Assembly: GCA_964016985.1 (NCBI GenBank)
Contig: OZ024825.1
Coordinates: 32,890,057-32,954,056 of the forward strand
Length of the DNA: 64,000 bases
From: Anodontia alba
Lineage: Eukaryota; Mollusca; Bivalvia; Lucinida; Lucinidae
Direction: 5' to 3'
Position numbers and translations under genes: made by a program. Positions 1,946 through 46,858 of the stretch are shown piece after piece (the stretch's first letter is position 1; each line of letters opens with the position of its first letter). Below the pieces are notes generated by a model. It saw nothing but the letters and a program-made list of their open reading frames with translations. It was not told the origin of the DNA and ran no database searches.

Positions 1946-2155
1946 CTTTTAACCCTTCTCTTGCTGAACACGACATGTCCTATCTTAGCAAACAGTGTAG
2001 ATCCAGATCAGTTGCTTCTTCAGTAGCCAACTGATCTGGATCTGCACTGTTTGTCATTAAATATGTGAATTTCTATCAAAAACCCGGATCAAGTAATCTG
2101 ATTGACTGCAAATTAGAAGCGGGGCATCTTAATTTATTCAGCATGATAAGGGTTA
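1946..2155. repeat. Foldback repeat with the F3 palindromic core
   Basis: Outer inverted arms start TTAACCCTT (about 1949) and end AAGGGTTAA (about 2150), with matching 'TGCTGAA'-type sequence inside. The centre (1989-2056) is the F3 core: GCAAACAGTGTAGATCCAGA facing its own complement ending GGATCTGCACTGTTTG. The same core occurs in at least ten other places in the window. Confidence 0.75.
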
Positions 2156-2262
2156 AATGTCGGTGATGTAAAGACCAAGGCGAAACTTTGATTTCGTTTG
2201 TTGTCTCTCATTATTGTCTAGTATAATATATTTGAACAATTTTTTCAATGTCATTATCATCA

Positions 2263-2370
2263 GCCCGGTAAGTTTTCTACATAAATCTATAGTGGGCCGT
2301 TATCGGCCCGTCCGGGTAGCTGACGAGCCGATAACGGCTCGCTGTAGATTTATGTAGAATGCTAGCTGGG
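2263..2370. repeat. Foldback repeat family F2, copy 1
   Basis: A short palindromic element has arms 'taaatctatagtgggccgtt' and its complement, separated by a small 'gggtagctga' centre, and ends with GCTAGCTGGG. Two more copies lie at 12345-12440 and 52199-52305. No coding capacity. Confidence 0.8.
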
Positions 2371-3007
2371 AGGATTAATTTATTGTTTATACAAATAGAA
2401 ACCCTCATCACAAGTGAAAATGAGTTCTTTAATTCTTGGTCATTCCCAAATGAAATATTTTCAGAACCAGAAGTGAAATATCTAAGCTATTCTGGGTGTA
2501 AAACTGAAGATCTTTTACACAAATCCGGTTTGCCTGTAAACAGGCCGGAAAGCCAAGAATACGCGGTGAGGGAAAAAGACTTGTTCAGGCTTACATGGCG
2601 TGTGAATATAATGTTGTTTTGAGGTTGAAATTGGACCGAAAAATGCAAAAACACATAATAACAAAGCTTATTGATCAGCATAACCACACGACCTCAAAAG
2701 GCGAATTCAAGCACTATCCAAAGAGTCGGAAGTTGGATGAAACACAAACAATGAAGTTAAATCCCTTAATAATTTGCAAGTTGAGACGAAAACTATCAAA
2801 GCATATATTCGAGAAAATCAGGAAAGGTTGTAAATTCAAAAGACATGGCCAACATCAAACAAGAACATGTGCGACAAAAAGAGGGCGGTTTGTCAGAGGC
2901 TCAGCACTTTGTGCATGCTCTCAATGACATTACGATCAGGAAAGGTGTGACAACAGTAATTGACGTTAACGACGAAAATACTGTTGAACTTGTTTACATA
3001 CAAACAT

Positions 3008-3172
3008 CAGGCCCCGAATTTATAAAACTTTTTTCATGCTCAACTCAGGTGAGCTTGCTAAGTTGAGTTGAGCATAAAAAGTTTTAACTGTTGGTATTTT
3101 TATCAAGTGAAATTTCATGCTCAGTTGAGTTGAGCATGAAAAAAGTTTTATAACCTCGGGGCCAGAAATGAG
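3008..3172. mobile_element. Palindromic non-autonomous element inserted in the MULE relic
   Basis: Terminal inverted repeats start GGCCCCGA and continue 'TTATAAAACTTTTTTCATGC' on both ends; the right arm is the complement of the left. Internal 'ATGCTCAACTCA'-type sequence folds again. It separates two adjacent coding pieces of the MULE relic, so it inserted after that gene. A related end lies at 63153-63215. A possible short GGCC duplication is ambiguous because the ends themselves contain GGCC. Confidence 0.75.
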
Positions 3173-4136
3173 AGAACATTTTCACAAATATCCCGAGATA
3201 CTGTTTATGGACACCACGTAAATTTAGAAAGGTTATCCTCTTTTCTCAATTTTGGCTGAAGATGGGGGTGGGAGGGGAAGACCTGTTGCTTGAAATCAGA
3301 AGCAAAAGAAAATCTTTAAAAAGTTTTAGTTGTTTTTTTTTTGTTTTTTTTTGTTTGTTTTTTTTTTTGTGTCACAATGATGTAAAGGATGTTAGAATCA
3401 TCATGGCCGATAAAGATCTTAACGAAATTAATGCAATAAAAGAACACAGTCCACATGCTAACATCCTTCTATGCAAGTTTCATGAAATGAAGTACTTCAA
3501 AAGGAAGGTGAGCGACTTAAATTTACTGCCAGCAGAAAAACAACATTGGGGATATTACTTCAGCAAATCATTGACTGCAAAGATCAAGAACATTATGGCC
3601 AGTTGTACAATGAATTGCCACATCATGATCCAAAGCGTGTCGAGTAGTACAATAGAAACTGGCATGGTTGTCAAAGTAGCTGGGTCATCAATTTTCGTAA
3701 AACATTGCAAACACATGGCAACAATACAAACAACAAGATTGAGAGTCATGACCAAAACGTATAACATTATGTAATAAAGATTATGCGTCCCCCAGTCTGT
3801 GACTAATTCGGCAATATTCATTGATGAGGCTTATGCAAAGAGTTCTATGGCTGGATACAGAAATCTCAAAACCACAATAGATTATAGAAATACAGATGGG
3901 ACTTTAATACAGTATTCATTGTTATGCAACAAAAAGGCTTTTGATATTTTGATTGAAAAATATAAAAAGCTCAACTCTGCATCATTTGAATATCCCGAAA
4001 CTGGTGAAAATATTCAGATCATGGCCACAAGGCCAAAAATACACAATTTTTTGTTTCTAAAGATCTGTAGACTTGCAATTTTTCAATGTTTTTTTGAATT
4101 TCGCATTGCCTTATCGACATATTTTTCCCTGTAGGA

Positions 4137-6594: not shown

Positions 6595-7143
6595 TGAATT
6601 TGGTTTTAACAGGTGTACCGAAATATTCTAATTTCCTACTTAAAGGGGATATATATATTTTGTTGATTATTTGTTGTATTAGCAAATAAGCAACCCTCCT
6701 TTACAATTAATCAGAAGGCTTATTTCGTTTATGTGGAGGAGCTGCACGGCACTTACAAATACTAAAGGCGACCATACTCGTCTTTGACGGTTCCTATAGA
6801 ATCGACGTCGAGTACAAATGAATGGAATAAACTTAAAAGTGTAACCAAATAGTGAAAGTTTGATCTGATGTAATTTTGGATTAAATTGGGTGAAAATATT
6901 CAACTATGTTCAATTTTTTTACTCCCGCAGAACTTTTGTCCTTAAGTATATTAAGGTTGGATTAGAAGTGATGGCTTAGAAATATACCTTTCACATAATG
7001 GCTTCTGATAACATAATGGCTTTTCTTGGTAGTTATCATTAGGTAGAAGAATCCAAGGCAAACTTTCGCTAGTATTTTACACGTCCGTCATTACCCAGTG
7101 GGCACACAACGTTGAGACAACGTATACTGGCAATCTCTTTCGT

Positions 7144-8422
7144 TCTTTCTCAGATTCTAACACGAATACTAACCGCAGTTAAAGAAGGCCTTCAAAATAT
7201 TGTGACACTGCATATGCCAGAAGTGGTGTTAATCAGATGTGGATCCTGAAAAACTCCAAGGAGCTCTTAGAAAACCTAAAGGCACAATCTCTTCATTCCG
7301 TCAACAGTATAAAATCTTTCGATTTCTCTACTCTTTACACTACTATTCCTCATGATAAATTGAAATCTAAATTAAAGGCAATTATCAACCAGTGTTTCTT
7401 CCACAAGAATGGTAACCGTCGATTTCAGTATGTTGTCATTGGCTACAAAGACACATACTTCATTCGGGATCACTCTGATGCACCACAAAAATACTCAGAT
7501 GCAATGTCATTAAGATGCTGGAATATCTAATCGACAATATTTTTGTGGAGTTCGGCGGTCGGATATTTCAACAAACAATCGGCATACCGATGGGTACTAA
7601 TTGTGCACCGTTACTTGCCGACTTGTTTTTATACTCGTATGAGGCGGAGTTTGTACAAAGTCTCCTCCAAGCAGGCAAGAAACACCTCGCACAACAATTC
7701 AATTTCACCTACAGATATATAGATGATGTATTGTCTCTGAAAAACACAAAATTTGCAGAGTATTTAGAATTCATCTACCCACGTGAACTTGAAATAAAGG
7801 AAACAACGGAGACTTCAGCCTCCTCCTCATACTTGGATTGTTATCTCTACATCGACAATGGAAAGCTTACTAATAGGCTTTACGACAAACGGGATGACTT
7901 CAATTTTCCCATCGTTAACTTTCCTTTCCTGAGCAGTAATATCCCTTCTGCACCAGCATACGGCGTTTACGTTTCACAGTTAATCCGTTATGCCAGAACT
8001 TGTTCAAATTATCAGGACTTCATGGAGCGTGGGAAAGTGCTCACTCAAAAGTTGTTGAGCCAGGGGTATCAAAAAACCAAACTGGTAGCAACACTTAAGA
8101 AGTTCTATGGGAGACATCATGATCTAGTCAATCCCTACAATGTGGCAGTTTCCAGACTTGTTTCTGATGTTTTTGCCAGTGACGCGCCATAAGTAGACTT
8201 CCCAAATCCCGACATACGCTTCTACCGATATTTCCTTCGTTCAGGCCCATGGGCATGGTGGGCGAAGCTTGCTTACCAAGTAATGCTTACTATCCGCGGA
8301 CGCCTGATTACACCCTTTGTTCTGGGGTCCATGTCTGTTGGTCTGAACATTCTGATTCGTCATTCGTTTATGGATTTATGATTTTGAATTACGGCTTTGG
8401 TACCATGACCGCAACTACTTTT
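7144..8422 (+). mobile_element. 5'-truncated Penelope-like unit (pseudo-LTR) directly upstream of the full copy
   Basis: Bases 7144-8422 repeat 10505-11786 in the same orientation. By eye there are only about ten substitutions and three single-base deletions (near 7195, 7503 and 8210). It starts inside the RT gene and runs through the stop codon (8190-8192) and the 3' untranslated region, and joins the next unit at about 8423. The unit period is 3,364 bp. A truncated unit in tandem in front of a full-length unit is the pseudo-LTR arrangement known for Penelope-like elements. Confidence 0.9.
7160..8192 (+). pseudogene. Truncated RT domain of the upstream Penelope-like unit
   Basis: Encodes the C-terminal half of the downstream RT. 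Motif A 'FDFSTLYTTIPHDKL' is at about 7320, motif B 'GIPMGTNCAP' at about 7580 and motif C 'YIDD' at about 7725. Two one-base deletions relative to the downstream copy, near 7195 and 7503, put the parts in different frames, so it cannot make a continuous RT. The part after 7515 is open to the stop at 8192. Confidence 0.85.
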
Positions 8423-11400
8423 TACCACTAAGCTGGTGTCTCTGCCTGGTGGACGGTCCGTCCGTCCCCGAGGGCACCGTCAACCTAGTATTATTAACAT
8501 GGTCGCACATATAAACTCAGATAAGATAGTGGCTGGGACGTCGCCCACTATAAAAAGGTCCCGATTAACACAGGTTTCTTCCGCGACAAGTCAGCCCGTG
8601 CATACAATTCCTGCAGGTTCCAAGGGCACGGGATCTGCAGCCCAAACAGGTGCCCCTAGAATACTTTTGAAAGATGTACATAAAATGACATACTTGCAAT
8701 CTGATGACAAATCCCTATGGTACCGGGATGGTGATGTTTATAAACAGATCAAAAACTGTAGTGTTAAACTACGTAACATTTTGGAATTTGATGACAGTGA
8801 GCCACACTGCAGTATAACATCATGCGATTCAAAAAATTGTAAAACCTGTACAATTTTGATCAAAGAAACTCGGTTTACGAGTGGACTCACTAATAAAACA
8901 TACCATACACGGAGCTGGGATGATCTCAATTGTAAGTCCTCTAATGTTGTCTATGGTGTGGAGTGTTCGCTCTGTGGATTGATATACGTTGGTGAGACGA
9001 AAGGACAACTACGCAATAGAATGTCTGGTCATAGATATGAAATAAATCATGGGAGTAATCAGTTGCTTTATCAACATTTCAATCTACCAGATCATTCTAT
9101 TTTGTCCTTCAAAGTAAGAATACTAGAAAAAATATACCACCCTACTAACAATCCCAGCCTGAGCACGCCACTTCGTAGACAGCGTGAGGAATTCTGGATC
9201 AGAGAATTAGGCATTGCAGCACCATATGGTTGCAATGACAAAATAGATTCTGTAGGAAATCTTACTAGCCCAAGATGCAGTTCGGTCAATGTGATGAGGC
9301 TCTTTGGCAGCTCTCAAAGACGTAAGAGAAGTCATGGACATCGGCACTACAATCGTCCTAATTTTCATGTTGATGTCGCATTTGACACTCTCCTTCCATA
9401 TGTACAGCAACCATTAGGACTTCATCATATTCGTACCAAGCTGTATCAGCTGCCGGTAACTAAACTTCGCTCTTTGCAGAAGGAAGTGGTGGATACAAAA
9501 ACATATGTTCAAAATTCTCCGGAATATAAGCTGGTTGCTATCATTTTGGATGTTGCTAAGTTTAGGTTGTACAAGCCTGTTCAAACAGTTTCTCCAGAAG
9601 AGACTCCCACTCGTGATTTTCTGAAACTTGACTTCAGAAACAAGGGTTTTGACGCCGTTAACATTAGCAATATCCTGAACCATAAGAAAGTGACTTCAAC
9701 CATACCAGCTTACTTCAAAAACCAGAGCCCACCTATCATCTCCTACAGTTATTCGTCTCCCATTGCACCTAAAATTTTCAATTACAAAAACGTGCTACAA
9801 GAGCTAAATACTGAGAACATTACTCGAAACCCCTCAGAGTGTTCCTGTAAAGCATCGGAGTTCTGTTATATTCCAGCCGGTCACGTCATAACAGGTGACC
9901 TCAATATAGTCAGGATTAGCAAACTCAGGGACATTCTTTCCAAAGGCCCTAAATATAGGGAACCCAGGTCTTTTACTTGGAAACAGAATTCTAAATTAAT
10001 ATTGGATTCTGCTGAAGAGTATGCACGACGCTGGGCCAAGAAAGAGGACGTAGAAGTTGACACACTGTCTGAATGGGTTAAATCGGTAATGTCCTTGGTA
10101 AACAGACGTGTCTCAGTACTCAGCAGAACCATGTCTCGCCGACATGAATCGGTGTTTGACGATCAAGATGTTGCTGCTGAGTTAGCTGAAATCCATGAGA
10201 AGTTTGTCGTTGTTCCAGCCGACAAGGCATCTAACAACATTATGTTTGTTTGCAAAACACACTATATAAACTGCTTAATGGAAGAGCTTGGTATGAGTAC
10301 CATGACCGGAAACCCTACATATAATCTTACTGCTATGTCCAAGGAAGAAATTCTACAAAACCACCATTCGGTGATGCTGACATTTGGAATTTCCCTCCCA
10401 GAGGAAGATATTGACCTTCCCAAACTGTACTGGATTCCTAAACTTCACAAGAATCCGTACATGCAGAGATATATTGCTGGTTCAGCTAAGTGCTCAACCA
10501 AGCCTCTTTCTCAGATTCTAACACGAATACTAACCGCAGTTAAAGAAGGCCTTCAGAAGTATTGTGACACTGCATATGCCAGAAGTGGTGTTAATCAGAT
10601 GTGGATCCTGAAAAACTCCAAAGAGCTCTTAGAAAACCTAAAGGCACAATCTCTTCATTCCGTCAACAGTATAAAATCTTTCGATTTCTCTACTCTTTAC
10701 ACTACTATTCCTCATGATAAATTGAAATCTAAATTAAAGGCAATTATCAACCAGTGTTTCTTCCACAAGAATGGTAACCGTCGATTTCAGTATGTTGTCA
10801 TTGGCTACAAAGACACATACTTCATTCGGGATCACTCTGATGCACCACAAAAATACTCAGATGCAGATGTCATTAAGATGCTGGAATATCTAATCGACAA
10901 TATCTTTGTGGAGTTCGGCGGTCTGGTATTTCAACAAACAATCGGCATACCGATGGGTACTAATTGTGCACCGTTACTTGCCGACTTGTTTTTATACTCG
11001 TATGAGGCGGAGTTTGTACAAAGTCTCCTCCAAGCAGGCAAGAAACACCTCGCACAACAATTCAATTTCACCTACAGATATATAGATGATGTATTGTCTC
11101 TGAAAAACACAAAATTTGCAGAGTATTTAGAATTCATCTACCCACGTGAACTTGAAATAAAGGAAACAACGGAGACTTCAGCCTCCTCCTCATACTTGGA
11201 TTGTTATCTCTACATCGACAATGGAAAGCTTACTACTAGGCTTTACGACAAACGGGATGACTTCAATTTTCCCATCGTTAACTTTCCTTTCCTGAGCAGT
11301 AATATCCCTTCTGCACCAGCATACGGCGTTTACGTTTCACAATTAATCCGTTATGCCAGAACTTGTTCAAATTATCAGGACTTCATGGAGCGTGGGAAAG

Positions 11401-11786
11401 TGCTCACTCAAAAGTTGTTGAGCCAGGGGTATCAAAAAACCAAACTGGTAGCAACACTTAAGAAGTTCTATGGGAGACATCATGATCTAGTCAATCCCTA
11501 CAATGTGGCAGTTTCCAGAATTGTTTCTGATGTTTTTGCCAGTGACGCGCCATAAGTAGACTTCCCAAATCCCGGACATACGCTTCTACCGATATTTCCT
11601 TCGTTCAGGCCCATGGGCATGGTGGGCGTAGCTTGCTTACCAAGTAATGCTTACTATCCGCGGACGCCTGATTACACCCTTTGTTCTGGGGTCCATGTCT
11701 GTTGGTCTGAACATTCTGATTCGTCATTCGTTTATGGATTTATGATTTTGAATTACGGCTTTGGTACCATGACCGCAACTACTTTT
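8423..11786 (+). mobile_element. Full-length Naiad-like Penelope-like element (PLE)
   Basis: A 3,364-bp unit with a leader of about 76 bp, one long open frame and about 230 bp of 3' untranslated sequence that also ends the upstream unit. The end after 'gcaactactttt' is defined by loss of similarity between the two units. Domain order (endonuclease first, RT last) and the CxC motif fit the Naiad/N-terminal-EN branch of PLEs. I see no clear target duplication around the tandem pair; an F1 foldback copy starts about 24 bp to the right. Confidence 0.85.
8499..11555 (+). CDS. Penelope-like polyprotein: N-terminal GIY-YIG endonuclease, CxC linker, C-terminal reverse transcriptase
   Basis: The frame is open from 8436, where the first codon is GTG. 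The first in-frame ATG is at 8499, giving 1,018 residues, and I use that start. The GIY-YIG-type endonuclease lies at about 145-250: 'VVYGVECSLC' then 'LIYVGETKGQLRNRMSGHR' (Y163-V-G165, R172/R174), a Cys-Cys-His-His set (C156, C159, H178, H193) and 'REEFWIRELG' with the likely catalytic Glu near 230. CxC is C448-S-C450, followed by 'GHVITGDL'. The RT occupies roughly 600-1000, with 'YWIPKLHKNP', motif A D729 in 'SFDFSTLYTTIP', motif B 'GIPMGTNCAPL' at 815, motif C 'YIDD' with D863/D864, and 'YDKRDDFNFPIVNFPF'. The catalytic residues I can place are present and there are no stops. In this family the endonuclease nicks DNA and the RT copies element RNA at the nick. No in-frame UGA is seen, unlike the selenoprotein Naiads reported from clams. 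Confidence 0.88.
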   Translation: MVAHINSDKIVAGTSPTIKRSRLTQVSSATSQPVHTIPAGSKGTGSAAQTGAPRILLKDVHKMTYLQSDDKSLWYRDGDVYKQIKNCSVKLRNILEFDDSEPHCSITSCDSKNCKTCTILIKETRFTSGLTNKTYHTRSWDDLNCKSSNVVYGVECSLCGLIYVGETKGQLRNRMSGHRYEINHGSNQLLYQHFNLPDHSILSFKVRILEKIYHPTNNPSLSTPLRRQREEFWIRELGIAAPYGCNDKIDSVGNLTSPRCSSVNVMRLFGSSQRRKRSHGHRHYNRPNFHVDVAFDTLLPYVQQPLGLHHIRTKLYQLPVTKLRSLQKEVVDTKTYVQNSPEYKLVAIILDVAKFRLYKPVQTVSPEETPTRDFLKLDFRNKGFDAVNISNILNHKKVTSTIPAYFKNQSPPIISYSYSSPIAPKIFNYKNVLQELNTENITRNPSECSCKASEFCYIPAGHVITGDLNIVRISKLRDILSKGPKYREPRSFTWKQNSKLILDSAEEYARRWAKKEDVEVDTLSEWVKSVMSLVNRRVSVLSRTMSRRHESVFDDQDVAAELAEIHEKFVVVPADKASNNIMFVCKTHYINCLMEELGMSTMTGNPTYNLTAMSKEEILQNHHSVMLTFGISLPEEDIDLPKLYWIPKLHKNPYMQRYIAGSAKCSTKPLSQILTRILTAVKEGLQKYCDTAYARSGVNQMWILKNSKELLENLKAQSLHSVNSIKSFDFSTLYTTIPHDKLKSKLKAIINQCFFHKNGNRRFQYVVIGYKDTYFIRDHSDAPQKYSDADVIKMLEYLIDNIFVEFGGLVFQQTIGIPMGTNCAPLLADLFLYSYEAEFVQSLLQAGKKHLAQQFNFTYRYIDDVLSLKNTKFAEYLEFIYPRELEIKETTETSASSSYLDCYLYIDNGKLTTRLYDKRDDFNFPIVNFPFLSSNIPSAPAYGVYVSQLIRYARTCSNYQDFMERGKVLTQKLLSQGYQKTKLVATLKKFYGRHHDLVNPYNVAVSRIVSDVFASDAP

Positions 11787-11809
11787 ACACCGTATGACAT
11801 ACGGCTATC

Positions 11810-12071
11810 ATTACGAAAACACGCCTATTCAAATATACTGAAAATTTTACCATCAAAAAATGAAAATATTCAGAAAAAAATTCTGATACTTTTTGCCATA
11901 TTTCTGCTCCAAACATTGTGGGTACTCGTTAGAACCGCCTTAGCGAGTACCCACAATCTATGTTTTTGAGCAGAAATAAGAAAAATAATGTATACCCCTA
12001 TAAACCCCAGTTTTACTATATAAAAGTAAGCTTTAAGGGTGTCAACATTATATAGGTATGTTTTCGTGATG
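11810..12071 (+). repeat. Foldback repeat family F1, copy 2
   Basis: Starts ATTACGAAAACACGCCTATT and ends GTTTTCGTGATG, which are imperfect inverted repeats of each other. The central palindrome is shortened: 'gtgggtactcgttagaaccg' is followed directly by 'cttagcgagtacccacaat', so part of one arm is deleted. It abuts the 3' flank of the Penelope-like element. Confidence 0.85.
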
Positions 12072-12344
12072 ATAATGCTTGTTGATATAGACTATTAGAG
12101 GGGAAATAATCATGATGAAAGCGCATGACAAAAAGACATTTGGACTTCTCTCCCACAAAAGAAAGTGGAAGTGTTCATATAAATTATACATGGATGAACG
12201 GCTAAAATATTGAACATGATAAGTATTCACCAATGAATTGTTCTGAAGTATCACAGCAAAAATAATAAAAATAAAGAATCTTTTCTAAGCTACTCCAATA
12301 CCGTGAAAATACTAGAATGAGTCCGACAAGCAAACAAGAACATT
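12072..12344. other. No gene recognised
   Basis: AT-rich sequence between two foldback repeats; no coding or structural signal seen. Confidence 0.4.
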
Positions 12345-12440: not shown

Positions 12441-13017
12441 TTATTTCATATGTGAACAACGTAGACCAAGGATCGGTCTGTTCATCCAGAGCCTGCAGAT
12501 TCGCACCAGGTTTGAACCCACAAAATCGGAAAACAATGGATATCAGAAAGTGTATGATCAATTTTAAAGCTGAAAACCGTTGATTACATAACGCATCACG
12601 AGTTACAATCCAAATAACCATGCATTAAATTGAAAAGATGGCCCAAAACCCTTTGTTTTGTTTGGCGTGTCTGGACTTTGCCTTTGCGTTATTACTGTAA
12701 GGAAACCTTAATAAAAATGATTGTTTTTAAAACAAGTCAGGTCGCCCTTTCCTGGTCGTCGCCTGATACGGGTCATTTTGTCTTTGACAAGCTATTCTGA
12801 AAGTAAGAAAGACACTTGGCACAAAACTTACCCTCAGTTATTTTCCTTATCTATTCCTGTTGAATCCAGTAAATTTGAATTTGAATGGACTTCGGCATTA
12901 TTTATTAAGTAGCTACGTTAACGTTATTTTACATTCGGATATTCCCTTGTTCTAAATTTAGACGCTTGTTGCGGCTGCATAAAGTTAAGAGTTTACACAG
13001 TTTACTCCTGGGAAACC
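12441..13017. other. No gene recognised
   Basis: Short frames only. No motif or repeat shared with the rest of the window was noticed. Confidence 0.35.
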
Positions 13018-13294
13018 ATTACGAAAACAAGCCTATTCAAATATACTGAAAATTTTACAAAAAAAAAAAAAAAAAAAAAAAAAAATGAAAATTTTTAGAT
13101 AGAAATTCTGATATATTTCATATTTCTGCTCAAAACGTAAATTGTGGATACTTGTCAGAACCGCCTCGGCGAGGCAGTTGTAACGTGTACCAACAATTTA
13201 TGTTTTGTGCAAATGTATACCCCTGTGACCCCAGTTTTACTATATAAAAGTGGGGTTTAAGGGGGTCAAAATCATGTAGGCATGTTTTCATGAT
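13018..13294 (+). repeat. Foldback repeat family F1, copy 3
   Basis: Starts ATTACGAAAACAAGCCTATT and ends GTTTTCATGATG. It contains an A-run at 13059-13085 and a diverged central palindrome ('gaaccgcctcggcgaggcag'). The 'tatataaaagtggggtttaa' block is present, as in the other copies. Confidence 0.85.
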
Positions 13295-13368
13295 GGAGAG
13301 ACCATGCTTTTTTTTATTATTGTCGGCTTGATGTTTAGTCAAAGGTAAGTATAAAATACAAATCAAAA

Positions 13369-13708: not shown

Positions 13709-15016
13709 TTATGGATATTACATTTATCTTATATATAAAATTCATTTCTTACACAATGTTAAAAATAAAAAGAAACGTGATATCCTATAGTACCAGTGTT
13801 GTTATTAAAAAAAAAAAAAGAACTTGCTGTGACCCACTATATACTAACACACAACAAAACCAGACAAAAGGAACAAAAATGAGTTTTATATGGATTACGT
13901 ATACTGGTACATTGCTATTAACAGATACATAACACGTTTCGAATTTTTTTTTATTTTAAATAAATAGGAGAAATCGCTACCGATACTTGGAGATCGATCT
14001 ATACAGAAATATTTTCATTCAATAAATTACGTTCCTACAGCTACATGTAAAACATGAAAATTACATGAGATTCCACTACACAAGCAACTAATTTTACAAA
14101 AACATTTCACATTGCAAGTTTTGCCACCATATCGATGATTAAGCGCTCTCTCTTGTGGTATGGCTCCCCGCTCTATGTATATCTCGTTTGACGTGAATTA
14201 CTATAAAGATGTCTTAAGTCGAAAACCAGTTTGCCAAGAATGGTAACTTACCATATATTTCGCTTAGAAAAGTAGTTCGACGGCTTATTTTCATATTTAA
14301 ACTAAAATTCGAAGTTACTTGAAATATTTTGTGTTTCACAAATAAACGAAATGTTATTTTATACCTCAGCGTCATCTATATAGGTTTTCTATTGACATTT
14401 TTACGATATGTACTATTCCAGCACTACTTTGTGTATGAATATAGGTTAGAAATTAGGAAGTTGTGCTAAGGCTCCAGATCACTATGAAAAATTAGGTTTC
14501 TAAGTACTTTTCGTCGTTATCTCGGAGATCAGAACATATCATGTTATATCTTTTAAATTGCTGATTGGATCTCATCATATTTTGCAACCGATCAAGTACC
14601 ACTGACTCCGACAGACTTTCAAACTTGTACATCTTCGCGTGCTGCGTAAACGGCGGCCATGCCATTTTTTGGACACAAGATTTCAATATGCCACGTGTAG
14701 GTTGAAAAAATATTACCACTTCTTCCTTAAAAATTAAAAATAGCTTCCGGTTATCCTAGACCAAAGTTTACAGATACTAAATGCAGTAATTGTTTAGTGG
14801 TAACTGCTTCTGTTACTCAGATTTTGGTGCACAAAATTGGACCCCAAAATGCATTTTTTATTTTAATGGTCCTGTAATACTCGTTCAGCTGTTTGTTTTA
14901 AAATTTTAAGTATTTCTTCTTATATAAGCTTAATGTTTTGGACTTTTCTTTCATGATCAGTCACTGCCCACTTGGTCTTAATTGGGTTTTTTTTTGTTTT
15001 TGTCAGAAAATGGCAC
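13707..15016. other. Unassigned AT-rich DNA
   Basis: No gene is recognised apart from the weak minus-strand candidate at 14492-14719. No copy of the dispersed repeats was noticed here, which makes it one of the longer repeat-poor stretches of the window. Confidence 0.4.
14492..14719 (-). CDS. Unrecognised 75-residue open frame, possible exon
   Basis: The frame begins upstream of 'MAWPPFTQHAKMYKFESLS' and ends 'SDLRDNDEKYLET' at a stop. It has mixed composition, an ATG in an acceptable A-rich context and no similarity to the window's repeats. No domain is recognised. It could be a short first exon, a relic of an element or chance. Confidence 0.18.
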   Translation of the reverse strand: MVIFFQPTRGILKSCVQKMAWPPFTQHAKMYKFESLSESVVLDRLQNMMRSNQQFKRYNMICSDLRDNDEKYLET

Positions 15017-15295
15017 ATTACGAAAACACGCCTATTCAAATATATAGAAAATTTCACCTAAAAAAACCCGAAAATTTTCAGGTAAAAAACTCTGATATTT
15101 TTCATATTTCTGCTCAAAACATAGATTGTGGGTACTCGTTAGAACCGCCTCGGTGAGGCGGTTCTAACGAGTACCCACAATCTATATTTTTAAACAGAAA
15201 TAAGAAAAACAATGTATACCCCTGTATGCCCCAGTTTTTCTATATAAAAGTGGGGTTTAAGGGAGTCCAAATTATATAGGCATGTTTTCGTGATG
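15017..15295 (+). repeat. Foldback repeat family F1, copy 4
   Basis: One of the best-preserved copies: ATTACGAAAACACGCCTATT at the left end, GCATGTTTTCGTGATG at the right, and a central palindrome whose arms 'atagattgtgggtactcgtt' and 'agaaccgcctcg' meet at about 15153. About 280 bp with no coding capacity. Confidence 0.9.
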
Positions 15296-16280
15296 AGCCG
15301 TGTTAAGTTATCCTTAAGGAATCCTGAGACATAACCCGAAGTAATGTGGAAGAGAGCTGATTAGCATTTTGCACAAATATATTTTGTCTATCTAATGGTA
15401 TAAAAAATCCAATGGCAAGCGATCCTGCAGGTTATTACAGCCATTGATTGATTTGTAACTGACCTGGAAATGGTGACGCTACAGTAACCAGTTTGCCAGC
15501 CTTTAAATGAAGTGTGAAAGTTTCATTAGATTCGGAGATAAAGCGGGAATTACTTGAAGTTCAATATATCAAATCTGTTGACAATAGCTTTATCATTTTA
15601 ATATTACAGAAATTCGAAAGGTTTCATAGTAAATATTAAACTTTGCTTAGGGCTATCCATGTTTCAACAGACAACAATGTTACTACCAGTAGTTGTATAA
15701 CCAGTTTGTAATAAACGATAAACACAACGCTCCAAATATACACCTGGTCATCTGCTTGTGGAAAGTGGTTATGTACTCAAACACAACGCACGAACTCGTA
15801 GTTTGTTACTATTATAAAAAAAAGCGACGAAAATCGATTTGAGACATGATTGACCACATCTGTCAGACCACAGCTTTCACGGGCCTCCCTTGTTTGAGCT
15901 GTTCATTTCAGATTATGGTCTATATAATAAGGGAATTGTGACTTAAGAGGTCATGTTATGATGAACAGAAGTGTTTTGCGACAGGGGAACTTGTTTTCCT
16001 TGAAGCATACTGCTCAAAGTATTGACATATTTTGTTGCGGGTCGCCGTTTAGGAGTTATGCTAATCACACAACTATTACAGGAACTATACCGGTCCCAGC
16101 TTAAGCGGCAGTAACTACCAAGACTTTTGACATGATAGTCGTGCATCTGATAACGATGAGAATAGAATAGAATGTTTTATTATCTAATTATAACTTCTTT
16201 CGGGTATTACCGACTTCATCTTCAAATGAAATTCTGCTTCAGAAAGTACGAGGATAATTCATTAAGACATTAAAGGGGCA
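15296..16280. other. No gene recognised
   Basis: Short frames only; no repeat identified. Confidence 0.35.
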
Positions 16281-19709: not shown

Positions 19710-19725
19710 TCTTTACAGACTCTGC

Positions 19726-20002
19726 ATTACGAAAACATGCCTATTCAAATATATAGAAGATTTCATCTCCAAAAACTAAAAAATTCTCAGATAAAAACCC
19801 CGATATTTTTCAAAACATTGCTCAAAACATAGATTGTGGGTACTCGTTAGAACCGCCTGGGCGAGGCGGTTCTAACGAGTACCCACAATCTATATTTTTC
19901 AGCAAAATAAGAAAAATAATATATACCCCTGCAAACCCCAGTTTTACTATATAAAAATGGGGTTGAAGGGGGTCAAATTTATATAGGCATTTTTTCGTGA
20001 TG
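19726..20002 (+). repeat. Foldback repeat family F1, copy 5
   Basis: Starts ATTACGAAAACATGCCTATT and ends TTTTTCGTGATG, with a central palindrome at about 19829-19894. It lies 7 bp after the right target duplication of SINE copy 2 and about 50 bp before SINE copy 3. Confidence 0.88.
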
Positions 20003-20052
20003 GACTACTATTTGAACTGGGGTTATTATAAAGTTTGGTTTTAGCTATTTTA

Positions 20053-24791: not shown

Positions 24792-26020
24792 TACGAGGGT
24801 GAGTCAATAAGTAACAAGCCTATCCCATTTTCAATGGACCGAGATTGTCACGATTTTCATGCTTTGTTTCAATATATGTTTTATACATGGATACAAAATT
24901 GCACACGTATCGAGTCATTCTTTAATAAGATATTGACTGTCAAACATGGCAAGTGATGCAAAGGCATGATTTTCATCTAAAGTTGAGTACCGTGCTGTAA
25001 TTCTGTACTTGTATTTAAAAGGTAAAACAGGCAAGGAAATACACGGTGAGCTGACCGATATTTATGGATCTTCTGCACCAGCTTATGCTCAGGTTAAATT
25101 CTGGGTAGGGGAATTCAAACGCGGTAGAACGTCTTTAGAAGATGAAGCCAGGTCTGGAAGCCCACTGGATGCCACCGACGAAGAAATGTGTAAGAAAGTT
25201 CGGGATCTGGTATACTCTGATAGGCGAATTTAGGTGGAAGAAATAGCGCAGACATTAGGCATTTCACATGGTAGCGTTTCAACAATCCTACATGATCGTT
25301 TAGGTATGCGCAAGCTAACAGCCCGTTGGGTCCCCAAATCTCTTAACAATGAGCAAATGGCAACCGGAGCATCAATATGCAGCGCCTTGTTGAAGCGTTT
25401 AAGGTCAAAAGATGATTTTCTTTGGTGTCTGGTGACTGTAGATGAGACTTGGGTTCATTATTATGAGCCAGGGAATAAAGCTCAAGAGTCGTCGGTGGGT
25501 AGGGCCTAGGTCCCCGAGGCCAAAGAAGTTCAAGACACAACGATCTGCTGGCAAGGTGATAGCCACAGTATTTTGGGACACAAAAGGCGTTATTATGTTG
25601 GACTTTTTACCCAAGAGAAGTACAACAACTGGAGTGTACTATGCAAACTTGTTACACCAGCTGAGAACCGCCATCCATGAAAAAACGCCGAGCAAAGTTG
25701 CAATGGATGCTGTAGAGCGAAACGGGTATGAATTAATACCACATCCTGCCTATTCGCCTGACCTAGCTCCTAGCAACTTCTTCCTATTCCCAAACTTGAA
25801 AAAGGATATCCGTGGACTTCATTTCCGGTCTGATGAAGAAGTGACGGCAGTTGAGGAGTGGGTCAATGGAAAGGATCCTGACTTTTTCAGTTCTGGGCTG
25901 ATGGCACTTGAACACCGTTGATCTAAATGCATCACACTAGAGGGCAATTACATCGAAAAGGAAGAGGTGGATCTCAACCGGAAATAAGTTAGGCTCGTTA
26001 CTTATTGACTTACCCTCGTA
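24792..26020 (+). mobile_element. Mariner transposon, nearly full length, non-autonomous
   Basis: Inverted ends match over about 28 bp. The left starts TACGAGGGTGAGTCAATAAG (24792) and the complement of the right end starts TACGAGGGTAAGTCAATAAG (26020 inward). TA flanks both ends, as expected for the Tc1/mariner target duplication. The body holds one broken transposase gene in the same orientation. Confidence 0.95.
24946..25921 (+). pseudogene. Mariner transposase pseudogene
   Basis: The ATG at 24946 starts 'MASDAKA', followed by a stop (24967), then 'KTGKEIHGELTDIYG', 'AQVKFWVGEFKRG' and 'SLEDEARSGSP' (helix-turn-helix region). A second stop lies at 25231, then 'EEIAQTLGISHGSVSTIL'. The first catalytic Asp is in 'VTVDETWVHYYEPGNKAQ' (about 25440). 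A one-base frameshift near 25489 leads into 'SRRWVGPRSPRPKKFK'. The 'QDNAPAH' segment that carries the second Asp is missing between 'EKTPS' and 'KVAMDAVERNGYEL' (about 25690), an internal deletion. The third Asp lies in 'YSPDLAPSNFFLFP' (about 25755). The gene cannot make an active DDD enzyme. Confidence 0.92.
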
Positions 26021-29504: not shown

Positions 29505-31882
29505 AACATTAAAAACAAGAGGCCCATGGGCAACAGTTCGCTCACCTGCATATTTGCAAATGCCGTGCAACAGTCTTCCAGTATTGCCACAGCAACTTGG
29601 ACACAAATTTGACCATCCCATAAAAAGGTCGAAGGTCATCCTAGTCTCATCATTTTAACAAATTTGGTAGACCTTAAGTCCCTGATGCTGTATACCAAGA
29701 TTCAGCATTAAAGCTTTCTAAGAACTGGAGAAGATTTTTAAGTGTTTTACCATATATGGGCATGGCAGCGATCTTGTTCAATGATACAAAACCATTTGAA
29801 CAATGTGTCAACATCCCTTCGACAGAAGGCCCCATATGAAATCTGGTGAAAATTGGTCAAGTGGTTTTAGAGAAGAAGAGGTTTAAAGATTTTATGATTT
29901 TATACCTGTATATAGCAGAGGGGCAAGGGCAGATAACCCCCAGGGGGGAAATTTTGATCATACCTAAAACGTTTTACTACTTTAATGATACATTGTAAGT
30001 TTCAGCCATTAGTTTTAGGTACATATTGAAAAAAAAAAATTCACCCCCCTTACAAATCTATAGAGACGCAAATGTGACCTTATCGTAAAAAGGTCAAAGG
30101 TCAACCTATGGTCATCATTTGAACCAACTTGGTAGAGCTTGAGTCCTCGATGCAATATACCAAGATTCAGCCCCAAAGTTTTCTTGGTTCTGGAGAAGAA
30201 GATTTTCAAGAGTTTTTACCATATGTGGACATGGCGGCCATCTTGTTCAGTTGCGCGGAACCATTTGCACAAATTGGCAATACCCTTTCAACAGAAGGCT
30301 CATGTGAAATCTGGTGAAAACTGATCAAGCAGTTTCAGAGAAGAAGACATTTAAAAATTACACATTTTTATACAAGTATATAGCCCAGTGGCAAGGGCAG
30401 ATAACCCTCAAGGGACAAAATTTTGATTATAACTAAATTATTTTACTACTTTAATCACACATTATAAGTTTCAGCCATTAGTCTTTAATACGTTCTGAGA
30501 AAATAACTTTTCAACATTATCACCATACAAATGCATGGGAACGCAATTTTGACCTTGCCATAAAAAAGTCAAAGGTCCACTTACGGTCATCATTTGAACA
30601 AACTTGGAGGACCTTGAGTCCTCAATGATATATACCAAGATTCAGCCCAAAAGCTTTCTTGGTTCTTGAGAAGAAGATTTTTAAGTGTTTCTACCATATA
30701 TGGGCATGGCGGCCCATTTTGTTCAATTTCGCAAAACCGTTTCAACAAATTGGTAATACCCTTTTGACAGAAGGCCCCATGTGAAATCTGGTGAAAACTG
30801 CTCTCGCGGTTTCCGAGAAGATGACATTTAAAAAATTTTACACAATTTTATACATGTATATACCCCAGTGGCAAGGGCAGATAACCCTCTGTGGACAAAA
30901 TTTTGATTATAACTAAAATGTTTTACTACTTTAATCACACTCTGTAAGTTTCAGCCATTAGACTAATACATTTTGAGAAAGTGACTTTTCAACATTTTCC
31001 CCATATAAATGTATAGGGACGCAAATTTGATCTTGCCGTAAAAAGGTCAAATATCAATCTACGGTCACCGTTTGAACAAACTTGGTTGACCCTAAGTCCT
31101 CGATGCTGTATATTAAGATTCAGCTTTGAAGCTTTCTTGGTTCTTGAGAAGAAGATTTTTAAGTGTTTTACCATATATGGGCATGGCGGCCATCTTGTTC
31201 GATGGCGCGGAACCATTTGAATAAATTGGCACTACCCTTTTGGCAGAAGGCCCCATGTGAAATCTGGTGAAAATTGCTCGAGCAGTTTCAGAAAAGAAGA
31301 CATTTAAAAATTACACAATTTTATACATGTATATAGCCAGGGGCACGGGCAGATAACCCACCAGGGATAAAATTTTGATTATAACTACTTTAACCACTCA
31401 TTGTAAGTTTCAGCCATTATGCTTTTATATATTTTGAGAAAATGACTTTTCAACATTTTCACCATACAAATGCATGGGGACGCAAATTTGACCTTGCCGT
31501 AAAAAGGGTCAAAGGTCAAACTAGGGTCATCATTTGAACAAACTTAGTAGATCTTGAATCCATGATGCTATATACCAAGATTCAGCCCCAAAGCTTTCTT
31601 GGTTCTTGTGAAGAAGACTTTAAGTGTTTTTAACATATATGGGCATGGCGGCCATCTTGATTAACGAACCTTAACCATTGGTACAAATTTTCAGTCGCCC
31701 CTCTAATAGAAAGCTCAACATGAAGAAAATTGGCCCAGGGGTTACAGAGGAGAAGTCGTTCAAAGGTGTGGACGGACGCCGGACGACGGACGGGCGACGA
31801 CGGACGACGACAGACGACGGACTGCAAATGATCACAACAGCTTATCCTGAGCTTTGCTCAGTTGAGCTAAAAACGAGTATGA
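29505..31882 (+). repeat. Tandem array of about 470-bp units inside a dispersed element
   Basis: The phrase 'gggcatggcggccatcttg' (with variants) recurs at about 29758, 30228, 30700, 31178 and 31642, a spacing of 464-478 bp. Each unit shares 'ccccatgtgaaatctggtga', 'gggcaagggcagataaccc', 'taagtttcagccattag' and 'accaagattcagccc'. The array starts after 'aagaggcccatgggcaacag' and ends in CGGACGACGG repeats and a hairpin (cttatcctgagctttgctca, then GTTGAGCT). The last unit degenerates into the flank. A single-unit relative in inverse orientation lies at 59300-59815. Confidence 0.9.
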
Positions 31883-32644: not shown

Positions 32645-33108
32645 TTGCTTTCACGCGCTTATGATACTTGGTTTTGATCAGTTACTGTCACAATTAATAC
32701 AGAAGTACTGATCCAGACATGTTTACTACATGTATTGATTTCAAGGGTCATCTGATGGTCAGTTCGTCTGCGAAATGGCAAATTTGATACAACTATCCGT
32801 ATTAAATCTTATTTGGTTTGTTAGTACGTGAGCGTTGCAGACGACAGCTTAAATCTTGCTTCGTCCTAGTAACCTTGTGTACAATACAAGGAAGACGTCA
32901 AAAGTTTAAGATAATTAATTTACCTAATGAATATGCTAAAGCTAACTTGGTTTCCAAATATCGAATTTCATCTTTCGACTTGCACATGTCAGAAAGCCGC
33001 AAATCTCAGTGAAAATGAGCCGAACAAGTGCACCGAGGTTAATTGGTCTGGACATGTGTGGCAGTATGGGATGAGCTTTGCGATAAGTGGAACATGCCTA
33101 CTGGGTCT
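32645..33108. other. No gene recognised
   Basis: Short frames only. Confidence 0.35.
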
Positions 33109-33384
33109 CATTACAAAAACACGCCTATTCAAATATATAGAAAATTTCACCTCCAAAAACTGAAAATTTTCAGATAAATCTGATATTTTTTCATATTTCT
33201 GCTCAAAACATAGATTGTGGGTACTCGTTAGGACAGCTTCGACGAAGCGGTTCTAACGAGTACCTACAATCTATGTTTTCGAGCAAAAATAAGTAAAATA
33301 ATATATATCCCGGTAAACCCTAGTTTTACTATATAAAAGTGGGGTTTAAGGGGGTCAGAATTGTATAGGTATGTTTTCGTGATG
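33109..33384 (+). repeat. Foldback repeat family F1, copy 6
   Basis: Ends CATTACAAAAACACGCCTAT and GTATGTTTTCGTGATG. The central palindrome has a few mismatches ('ggacagcttcgacgaagcgg' at the centre), with the usual 'tatataaaagtggggtttaa' block on the right. Confidence 0.88.
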
Positions 33385-44039: not shown

Positions 44040-46858
44040 CCTCCCCACCAGAGTCGCAGTTGTGACAAACGTAGATATTATTTTTGACACGTTTGTGCAC
44101 TCTTCGTGCAACCAATTCTTGCAGCCCTGGTATTGAATCCATGCCTCTCTTGGACGGCTGTTCGAGTAAAACTCCACGCACACCAAGCAGTACCATTCGT
44201 CTTCGTCAGATGTCCGTATTTCTTTTGTGTACTTCCTACGACTTTTCTTTACTTACTCTTCAGCGACCGCCTAACACCGTTAGGGTACTTCTGTTTTCGC
44301 TTTACTTCTTCCTCTCTGGCGTTTTTCTCTGGGGTATCTGTGAGAATGGCGCTTTTACACGTCTTTCGACCTCCTGTTTGCTTTCTTGGTGCTGCCTTCG
44401 GGAACGGCCGTACTTTTTCTAGAGAGAAAACTCTTTAAAAAAATTCTTAAAATTATGCATTCGCTCATTACTTAATACTGTGGAAAAGGAGTTTCCTAAT
44501 GTTTTCATAAGACTGACAAGCTTACGTAACTGTCATAAAGTGCAGAGATACAAGTGTGTTCAATAATCCTATTTGATATGGTATTGATATGTTTTCGTAT
44601 TTACTGGCATTTTCTGTTTATGCAATATTGATAAGAATGTCGTAGTCTCTGCGTTTGTTGTTCGTTTGTTCCTATTTTAGTGGCTTGGGATAGTTATGAA
44701 ATTTAATTATTACACTGCCTGAGAATCTAGCTAGTTGTACTGGCATATTAGAAGGCAGTATGGAAACAATTCTGAAAAAGCTTTTGGACCTGAGAAAGGT
44801 TTGTGCTAGGTGGGTACCTCATTTGCTCACTGAGGAGCAAAAGACATAACGCCTTAAATGTTCCCGGGAACTTTTTAAAACATACAAAGGCTGTAATAGT
44901 CGGGTTATTTCTAACTTTCTAACAGGTGATGAAACCTGGGTGCACATGTTTGAGCCACAAAGAAGGGCTGATAATAAGCAATGGAAGCGAAAAGATAAAA
45001 AAAAAACAAAAAAAAAAAAACAAAACAAAAAAAAACGCCCATGTATTGCCAAGAGAACCATAAGTTCGCAAAAGATGTTGTACGCAATTTTCTTTAATTC
45101 AAATGGGCCAGTCGTTCAAGTGCCTTGTCCATCTGGTCACACAGTCACCAGCCGATTCTACAAGCGTTCTGTACTGAAGAAAGTGAAAGAGTTTTACAAT
45201 AAGAAACGACTAAGCAAAGGATGGTCAGAAGTCCACCTTTTACATGACAACACCTCCTCTCATAAATGTGAGGTTGTTAAGTCTTTTTTGGCGTCTGAAA
45301 AGGTGAAAGTTTTAAACCATCCACCTTATTCACCTGACCTGAGTCCCTGCGACTTCTTTTTATTTCCAAGGCTTAAGAAAATGCCTTCTGGAAATAAGTA
45401 TACGTCTAGAAGTTCTCAGCGCTTTTTATCAGAGTCTCCAACAGATACCGAAAGAAGACTAGTTATCTGCTTTTCACGACTTTGTAAAAAGGTTAAAAAA
45501 TGTGTTTCAGTAAAGGGGGAATACTTTGAACGTTTGTAATAAAAATATGTTTGATAAAACATAGCACTAAAGTAACCCGAACCCAATGACAAAACTTTTT
45601 TGCAGGACCCTTGTGTGTATATATATAGAGTAGATTACTCAGAATTATCAACCCATGAAAGAATTTTATTATTCAGATATCATCAAGTTGTAGAATACTA
45701 GACCTTTACCTTAAACCCTCTTTCATTATGTTGGTTTGCGTGGCTGCTCTAGGCCTTGCTTCTCGAACGATTCCCGTTCAAGTCGTTGACTGACATAACT
45801 TCCGCCGGATTATTTCTCATCTACATGCCCTGTCCGCCTGAAAAGTACTTCTTTAGGGGCCAAAACACAGACCTATCTAGCGGCTGCAGTGGAGTGGGGA
45901 AGAAAGCATAACTATTCCGTTATCTCTCGCAAACTTGATAGTCTCTAGACAAATATGTGAATGATGATTATCGAGGAGTAACAGTACCTTCTGGTCCATG
46001 CTGGGTTTACTATTCTCGCAAAATGCTGGATGAATACATAGAAATTTTCTGACGTCATCCAACCGGATTGATGTGCTGCACCGATGGCTACAGAGGATCC
46101 ATCACGAATGAAGTGGTCCTTGAACCGAACTCTAGGAAATATAAACATAGCGGGTACTGTATTCCCAGTAGCTCTTACTGCCGCACACATAGTTATGAGG
46201 TTTCCTCGTTCGTAGGAAGTTGAAGACCCGACTTGTTTGACACCTTTAGGTCCGACAATACTAGAGGGTTTTTGAACAGTGGTCAGTCCAGTCTCATCAA
46301 CGTTCCATATGTCATAGGGTATAATGTGGTCTCTATGGAGTATTGTTTCAAGTTGCTCATCGAATCTATTGACGTAGCTTCTGTTAAAACCCGTAGCCCT
46401 CGATAAGCTAGTTGGTTCATGCGTACGGATACATAGAGATGAATTTCGCTTAAGAACTCCTGAAAACCAGTCAGGGCCAGCACAGTGGTCACAACTCCAC
46501 TGATCGGGCATTTGCACTCCAAAGTCAGTAACACATTCATATGCGAGGCTTCTTACCTCTCCTTAGGAGAGACTAAAGTACATGTTTGCCGCCCTACAAG
46601 AAACATGTAGTATTGCAAAGCAGTCTTCTGCTCATCTGAAAATACCTGATGATCGGACCGATAACCAATGTTTAAATCACGTGTACCCACCACTTGAGCT
46701 TGCTTCACATAGGCCGAGTGTACAGTTGTCCAAACCAATCTCCTTGGCAACCAATCGAATGGAAAGCCCCATGAAAATGATTTCATTTACACCTTGTTCG
46801 ACCCCATAGCGCAGAGTTTGCACCCACTTCGTTTTACTGATTTAGTTTCTCACCATTC
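44040..46858 (-). pseudogene. Pogo-like (Tigger/jerky type) transposase relic, split by a mariner
   Basis: From 46858: 'KTKWVQTLRYGVEQGVNEII' and 'MGLSIRLVAKEIGLDNCTLG', 'RDLNIGYRSDHQVFSDEQKT', 'GPDWFSGVLKRNSSLCIRTH', 'YDIWNVDETGLTTVQKPSSI' (first catalytic Asp of the DDE_1 fold), 'GVKQVGSSTSYERGNLITMC', 'VLLLLDNHHSHICLETIK' (second Asp), 'PLQPLDRSVFWPLKKYF' (third Asp region) and 'MRNNPAEVMSVNDL' to about 45715. The C-terminal part resumes at 44440-44040 with 'DTPEKNAREEEVKRK' and a PHD-like zinc finger ('WYCLVCVEFY', 'YQGCKNWLHEEC', 'IYVCHNC'). Between them lies a plus-strand mariner relic. Many frameshifts and stops. The live enzyme would cut and paste a pogo-like transposon. Confidence 0.82.
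44755..45600 (+). pseudogene. Mariner-like transposase relic (third mariner family) inside the pogo relic
   Basis: 'METILKKLLDLRKVCARWVP' is followed by a stop in 'LTEEQKT', then 'TGDETWVHMFEPQRRADNKQ' (first catalytic Asp), an A-rich insertion coding almost only Lys (44995-45040), 'PCIAKRTISSQKMLYAIFF', 'VHLLHDNTSSHKCEVVKSFL' (second Asp) and 'PPYSPDLSPCDFFLFPRLKK' (third Asp), ending at the stop 45537-45539 after 'VSVKGEYFERL'. The N-terminal DNA-binding half is absent. No clear left terminal repeat; the right limit is about 45600. Opposite strand to the surrounding pogo relic. Confidence 0.83.

Follow-up and report, generated by a model that had tools for sequence, protein, structure and literature searches.

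A probably young, partially tandem insertion of a Naiad-type Penelope-like retrotransposon with an uninterrupted reading frame in the bivalve Anodontia alba

A stretch of 64,000 nucleotides from the lucinid bivalve Anodontia alba (assembly GCA_964016985.1, contig OZ024825.1, positions 32,890,057 to 32,954,056 of the forward strand; hereafter the window) was analysed, and we conclude with a probability of about 0.85 that it carries a young, partial-tandem insertion of a Naiad-type Penelope-like element (PLE), a retrotransposon whose GIY-YIG endonuclease lies N-terminal to its reverse transcriptase (RT). The anatomy of the element, its intact conserved residues, the head-to-tail junction and the broken upstream copy are all observed in this DNA (Table 1).

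Direct repeats occupy all of positions 7144-11786, a truncated unit being followed head-to-tail by a full one. Alignment of 7144-8422 with 10505-11786 gave 99.06% identity over 1,282 columns at a register of 3,361-3,364, confirming the coordinates, the direct tandem of a truncated and a full unit, and the 3,364-bp period proposed in an earlier sequence-only reading of this DNA. The two copies differ by nine substitutions and three 1-bp gaps, with all of the gaps in the truncated copy. Where about ten substitutions and three 1-bp deletions had been claimed, the three gaps stand, whereas the substitutions number nine and the gap in the 3' untranslated part could equally be an insertion in the other copy, the two being indistinguishable. 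The other two gaps lie in the coding part and break the frame, and the sole listed open reading frame (ORF) of at least 100 amino acids in the truncated copy is a piece of 225 residues (7515-8192). Eight of the nine substitutions fall within the frame (four synonymous and four nonsynonymous), and the ninth in the 3' untranslated part. At the seam, the 3' end of the truncated unit abuts the 5' start of the full unit directly; the 3' end of the unit is fixed to about 2 bp because the sequence beyond the full unit diverges at the same point. When the full unit was compared with the whole window at the DNA level, no further near-identical copy appeared; a single 71-bp match (43871-43801) is contained in an older, broken Penelope-like RT remnant (43904-43314, minus strand) with a protein identity of about 49%.

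The full unit holds a frame that is open from a GTG at 8436 to position 11555; read from its first ATG, at 8499, it encodes 1,018 residues, and the uninterrupted frame with GIY-YIG, CxC and RT motifs that had been claimed is present with its key residues intact. The chance of an open run of 1,018 codons is about 4 × 10−25 at the window's stop frequency of 0.0536 per codon. Use of the ATG at 8499 as the start is supported by the spacing of the relatives' methionines to an AGTSPxIKR-like motif, which was found near the start of 32 proteins: in 24 of these it is preceded by 9-11 residues, and by 11 in the window frame when read from 8499, while the other eight comprise the window frame read from its GTG, six proteins likewise starting further upstream and one that is shorter.

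Pfam placed a GIY-YIG domain at residues 171-232, N-terminal to RVT_1, and structure comparison aligned I-TevI with residues 168-272; the RT lies at residues 725-891. The endonuclease residues C177, C180, H199 and H214, invariant in 29 of 29 sequences, are what we take to be the published CCHH motif of the Naiad endonuclease, a motif by which Naiad is told apart from Chlamys. No C-terminal endonuclease was found by Pfam, and the frame stops 154 residues past the YIDD motif. When the predicted fold was compared with PDB structures, telomerase ranked above the group II, LINE-1 and R2 RTs, a link that the predicted fold suggests; a sequence search of the PDB gave no match for the window protein, and a profile gave only I-TevI (E=0.029). 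At the level of secondary structure, the model has two helices (689-717 and 728-735) between strands 663-682 and motif A. Naiad RTs, like telomerase, have an insertion-in-fingers domain.

Judged by architecture and motifs against the Naiad description, assignment of the element to the Naiad-type PLEs is supported, and the sequence-only reading was right to call the element Naiad-like: a GIY-YIG domain N-terminal to the RT, a CxC linker and an RT of the PLE/telomerase kind are all present. The element is a well-preserved addition to a kind of retrotransposon that was already known, as was its layout. Naiad elements were reportedly described by Craig, Yushenova, Rodriguez and Arkhipova, in Mol Biol Evol in 2021, from invertebrates including clams. 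Compared by description rather than by sequence, they share with the window element the N-terminal GIY-YIG, the CxC linker, the C-terminal telomerase-like RT, the tandem or pseudo-long-terminal-repeat (pseudo-LTR) arrangement and the lack of a hammerhead; the window element differs in having no in-frame UGA and a flank that is not microsatellite. Selenoprotein Naiads contain in-frame UGA codons decoded as selenocysteine, a feature absent from this uninterrupted frame. Furthermore, Naiad insertions are biased to microsatellites, and the flanks of this one insertion are not microsatellite.

Naiad is listed as a PLE class in the available portion of PMC10941475. Canonical Penelope/Poseidon elements resemble the window element in their tandem or partial-tandem units and in combining GIY-YIG with a telomerase-like RT, and Pen2_Av of Adineta vaga has the same pair of one full and one 5'-truncated copy (excerpt of PMC3846280). 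Their nuclease is C-terminal, however, and the Anolis element has a hammerhead ribozyme that overlaps the start of its ORF (excerpt of PMC11167929), whereas the window element has an N-terminal nuclease and yielded no hammerhead.

Table 1. Features of the tandem insertion in the window. Residue numbers (for example Y184 and D750) follow a 1,039-residue numbering.
Feature	Position	Strand	Details and basis
Upstream unit, 5'-truncated	7144-8422	+	Unit positions 2083-3364; C-terminal part of RT and 3' untranslated part, frame broken; 99.06% to 10505-11786; 225-residue open piece 7515-8192
Full-length element unit, 3,364 bp	8423-11786	+	Start set by repeat end at 8422 (±~2 bp); alignment of both 3' ends and junction sequence
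5' leader of full unit	8423-8498	+	Start methionine of relatives relative to AGTSPxIKR-like motif
Leader motif GGTGGAC-N9-GTCCCCGAGGG	8448-8474	+	24 nt ahead of start codon; open frames of relatives
ORF: endonuclease, CxC linker, RT; 1,018 residues and stop	8499-11555	+	ORF listing, conserved residues
GIY-YIG endonuclease domain	8937-9251	+	Residues 168-272; Y184, G186, R195, E231, N267, C177, C180, H199 and H214 all invariant
Telomerase-like part: linker, RT, C-terminal extension (predicted fold)	9750-11552	+	Residues 439-1039; Foldseek and VIA-align against PDB, telomerase among first ranks
CxC motif (C469, C471), between endonuclease and RT	9840-9848	+	Invariant in 29 of 29 sequences
RT motif A aspartate D750	10683-10685	+	Invariant in 29 of 29
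RT motif C, YIDD (D884, D885)	11079-11090	+	Both aspartates invariant in 29 of 29
3' untranslated part of full unit	11556-11786	+	Ends in ACTACTTTT; sequence and repeat alignment

Relatives were collected by two protein searches. The first scored 7,993 candidates, chosen for having the most words in common with the query; 396 of them reached an E-value of 10−3 or better, and the best 120 of the 396 were listed; the second used the N-terminal 446 residues as the query and returned 135 proteins, the best 120 of which were listed. Among the matches listed, P0002-P0014 covered 92-99% of the query at 56-63% identity, and the Pinctada imbricata proteins P0031 and P0048 showed 56% and 54%, respectively; the named matches came from Pinctada imbricata and Ostrea edulis. 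These long relatives are like the window element in length and architecture but unlike it in about 40% of their residues. Protein P0020 (590 aa, from a cluster of 559 sequences) matched at 98.5% identity over 540 residues, after which its frame diverges from that of the window, and the matches listed in the N-terminal search include 14 proteins with 82-96% identity over part of the query. Fifteen of the fetched proteins have a stretch of at least 78% identity, and every one of them is partial (252-590 aa), which points to a multi-copy family, many of whose members are probably broken, in some sequenced genome. As P0222 also matches the window's 478-bp satellite (29.6-31.7 kb) and P0141 also matches stretches at 47.1 and 34.4 kb, the source of these two proteins is probably this species or a close one.

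A tree was built from 36 of the 67 proteins of at least 840 aa (window included), mostly unnamed, which passed three strict motif patterns in the same motif order; it is a sample, in that the 31 proteins failing at least one pattern, some truncated and some with a motif spelled otherwise, were left out. With midpoint rooting, the window protein fell among 18 proteins grouped with support of 83/95 (drawn open), within a starred group of 20 that includes the Pinctada row, its branch forming a lineage of its own inside an unresolved group. Viral contigs yielded no relatives by protein search, and genome contigs queried with P0001 gave 27 pattern matches and no relatives. When genome contigs were queried with the alignment, three of 87 were relatives, all partial: L001 and L002, from a metagenome-assembled genome (MAG) of a Bathymodiolus-host symbiont, and L003, from a Thioglobus MAG. 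The two former (JACCHT010000024.1 and JACCHT010000015.1) are probably host contamination, since they place partial relatives of an animal retrotransposon on contigs of a symbiont MAG.

The tandem pair is the most similar of the 99 self-matches of at least 100 bp in the window, the next reaching 92.2% over 103 bp, and this supports the recent insertion proposed earlier; as far as paired repeats can tell, it is also the youngest mobile element of the window. The further claim of an active lineage stays a conjecture, all 15 fetched relatives with a stretch of at least 78% identity being partial. Divergence between the copies is 0.70% (Poisson 95% interval 0.32-1.34%), which corresponds to 0.35-3.5 million years at assumed rates of 10−8 to 10−9 substitutions per site per year, or to 0.16-6.7 million years when the interval is included; differences predating the insertion would make these ages overestimates. 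The value is no clean clock because a tandem template may itself have held two units that were not identical. Relative P0020 shares the state of the truncated copy at residue 830 and that of the full copy at residue 934, and the differences therefore lie on both sides.

Nicking, priming and a tandem template are steps that we infer from the canonical Penelope element and from the family. The GIY-YIG nuclease of the single protein would nick the chromosome, and the telomerase-like RT would copy the element RNA from the nick (target-primed reverse transcription). Most likely the template would have been a head-to-tail RNA of a tandem donor, of which the RT would have copied one whole unit from the 3' end, continued into the upstream unit and stopped after 1,282 nt; the resulting insertion would consist of a truncated unit with a complete one behind it. 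Repeat alignment agrees with the earlier claim of a pseudo-LTR-style tandem of an N-terminal-endonuclease PLE, and PLEs are described as tandems or partial tandems with pseudo-LTRs in the consulted passages of PMC11167929, where the purified protein of the canonical Anolis carolinensis PLE (Poseidon) is described as cutting AT-rich DNA and initiating reverse transcription inside the RNA. A relative may carry the same type of seam: residues 2-25 of P0172 match the C-terminal tail of P0033 (92% over 24 residues), and P0172 then runs through the leader motif into the N-terminus. Both the tail of P0033 and the start of P0172 are probably translated 3' untranslated sequence, and the frame of P0172 appears to cross the same kind of junction. 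No target-site duplication was found flush with the element ends. Insertion within the member of a short repeat family that starts at 11809 was ruled out, as that repeat begins 22 bp past the element end.

The single-event history, which we hold with moderate confidence, is the weakest step of the explanation. Both copies seem to carry derived states, and this, together with the 0.70% divergence, suits copies of different age or source, as would follow if a second copy had inserted beside the first, the nuclease targeting the element's own junction. This two-event origin, the main rival, is possible but on balance unlikely: target-derived sequence between the units could amount to no more than about 2 bp, and the similar junction in P0172 suits a tandem template at least equally well. 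It is improbable that the host made the tandem from an older insertion by unequal exchange or replication slippage; unequal exchange is generally known to yield in-register head-to-tail copies too, but a simple internal duplication would adjoin its source, not precede unit position 1 as here, and this route would require an older full tandem that then suffered a deletion. A collapse or misjoining of repeat copies during assembly earns still less credence: high-copy elements are prone to misassembly, but the two copies here differ at nine scattered sites and by three gaps, their outer flanks differ and the layout is known for the family. Although an RVT_1 match by itself cannot separate the types, the N-terminal GIY-YIG, the CxC linker, the lack of any C-terminal endonuclease or hammerhead among our matches and the rank of telomerase above the group II, LINE-1 and R2 RTs leave almost no room for a canonical Penelope, with its C-terminal endonuclease, or for a non-LTR or LTR element.

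Relatives whose open frames extend upstream of the start display peptides that fit the leader motif. Seven of the eight proteins with at least 20 residues ahead of the AGTSPxIKR-like motif (window included) fit its right-half pattern, and the exception, P0161, comes close to it with a peptide that begins WWT.. and ends in CPRV; when all 254 proteins were scanned again over their first 60 residues, P0008 was added as a ninth case. Peptides fitting GGTGGAC...GTCCCCGAGGG occur in different frames, namely WWT..CPRG (P0002, P0029, P0128 and P0172), GGQFVPEG (P0008), SPRA (P0173) and CPRG (P0069); this points to conservation at the DNA level, of the nucleotides rather than of a peptide. The spacer measures 9 nt in the window and 5 nt in the relatives showing both halves, and by hand count 24-27 nt separate the motif end from the start methionine in the eight cases where a methionine follows (24 nt in the window). 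In the relatives the motif is seen via their proteins; as several are close kin, the cases may represent four or five independent lineages. We raise as a doubtful suggestion that Naiad-type leaders hold a conserved cis-acting RNA element, GGTGGAC-N(5-9)-GTCCCCGAGGG, nearly fixed at 24-27 nt before the start codon. If real, it could serve transcript processing, translation of the tandem RNA or recognition by the element's own protein; more speculatively, its position may be likened to that of the hammerhead in canonical Penelope elements. The leader pattern is absent from L001, L002 and L003, and its matches in IMG/VR (two stretches with identical surroundings) look unrelated.

Rfam gave no match at the gathering score across the whole window, to a ribozyme or otherwise, and no hammerhead at E-values up to 10 in 7000-12100, where the only two rows were sub-cutoff microRNA models. 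The single match to a hammerhead regular expression in 7001-12100 falls in the coding part, where inspection by eye showed no stem, and hepatitis delta virus-like folds of the leader were weighed by eye and dropped. Compared with shuffled sequences, the leader folds modestly better (z=−1.9 for 8423-8500 and −0.6 for 8380-8500). One of the microRNA rows, for the mir-5365 precursor family, lies inside the RT frame in antisense orientation (10189-10112, minus strand; score 28.2 bits, cut-off 70, E=0.0082) and possibly reflects a microRNA family derived from a related element, or chance.

Some Naiad-like relatives, which make up a sister lineage, carry a ubiquitin-specific protease domain C-terminal to the RT: P0073, P0076 and P0078 (1,297-1,326 aa) and the partial P0228 (840 aa). 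In the first three, PF00443 matched at E-values from 9 × 10−31 to 1 × 10−33, from position 1 or 2 of the profile to its last, 254, and in P0228 the domain is taken from precomputed Pfam. The Cys and Asp boxes fit the patterns in all four and the His box in three, P0078 reading NGHYTS by eye. In the tree, P0073 and P0076 form one starred branch; the domain is not in the window element. An open-access literature search found nothing on a Penelope-like retrotransposon with a ubiquitin-specific protease, which may nonetheless be published elsewhere.

Elsewhere in the window, a short repeat family of about 255-280 bp is present at 11809-12072, 13017-13295, 15016-15296, 19725-20004, 33108-33384 and 62757-62504, with a part at 1090-1323; its ends are inverted and most copies begin CATTACGAAAAC or a near variant. 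The 478-bp satellite (29599-31659) comprises 4.4 copies with 81% matches, and because the open frame of P0222 joins a satellite-like stretch to a fragment of the element family, the two adjoin elsewhere. Open frames at 25442-25921 and 44940-45539 (plus strand) resemble mariner-type transposase remnants by eye, and one at 45945-46517 (minus strand) a pogo-like transposase remnant.

Genomically the finding is an ordinary one: Penelope-annotated elements make up 4.46% of the genome of Ostrea edulis and 5.84% of that of Pinctada martensii (available text of PMC9679248). Within the literature searched, the only purified, active, full-length PLE protein is the canonical lizard one (consulted passages of PMC11167929), and a Penelope element with an N-terminal endonuclease, in a copy both young and apparently intact, would be a practical start for biochemistry. 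Because its conserved catalytic residues are present and its tandem junction is defined, this copy could serve to ask whether Naiad-type elements also begin reverse transcription internally and what, if anything, substitutes for the hammerhead.
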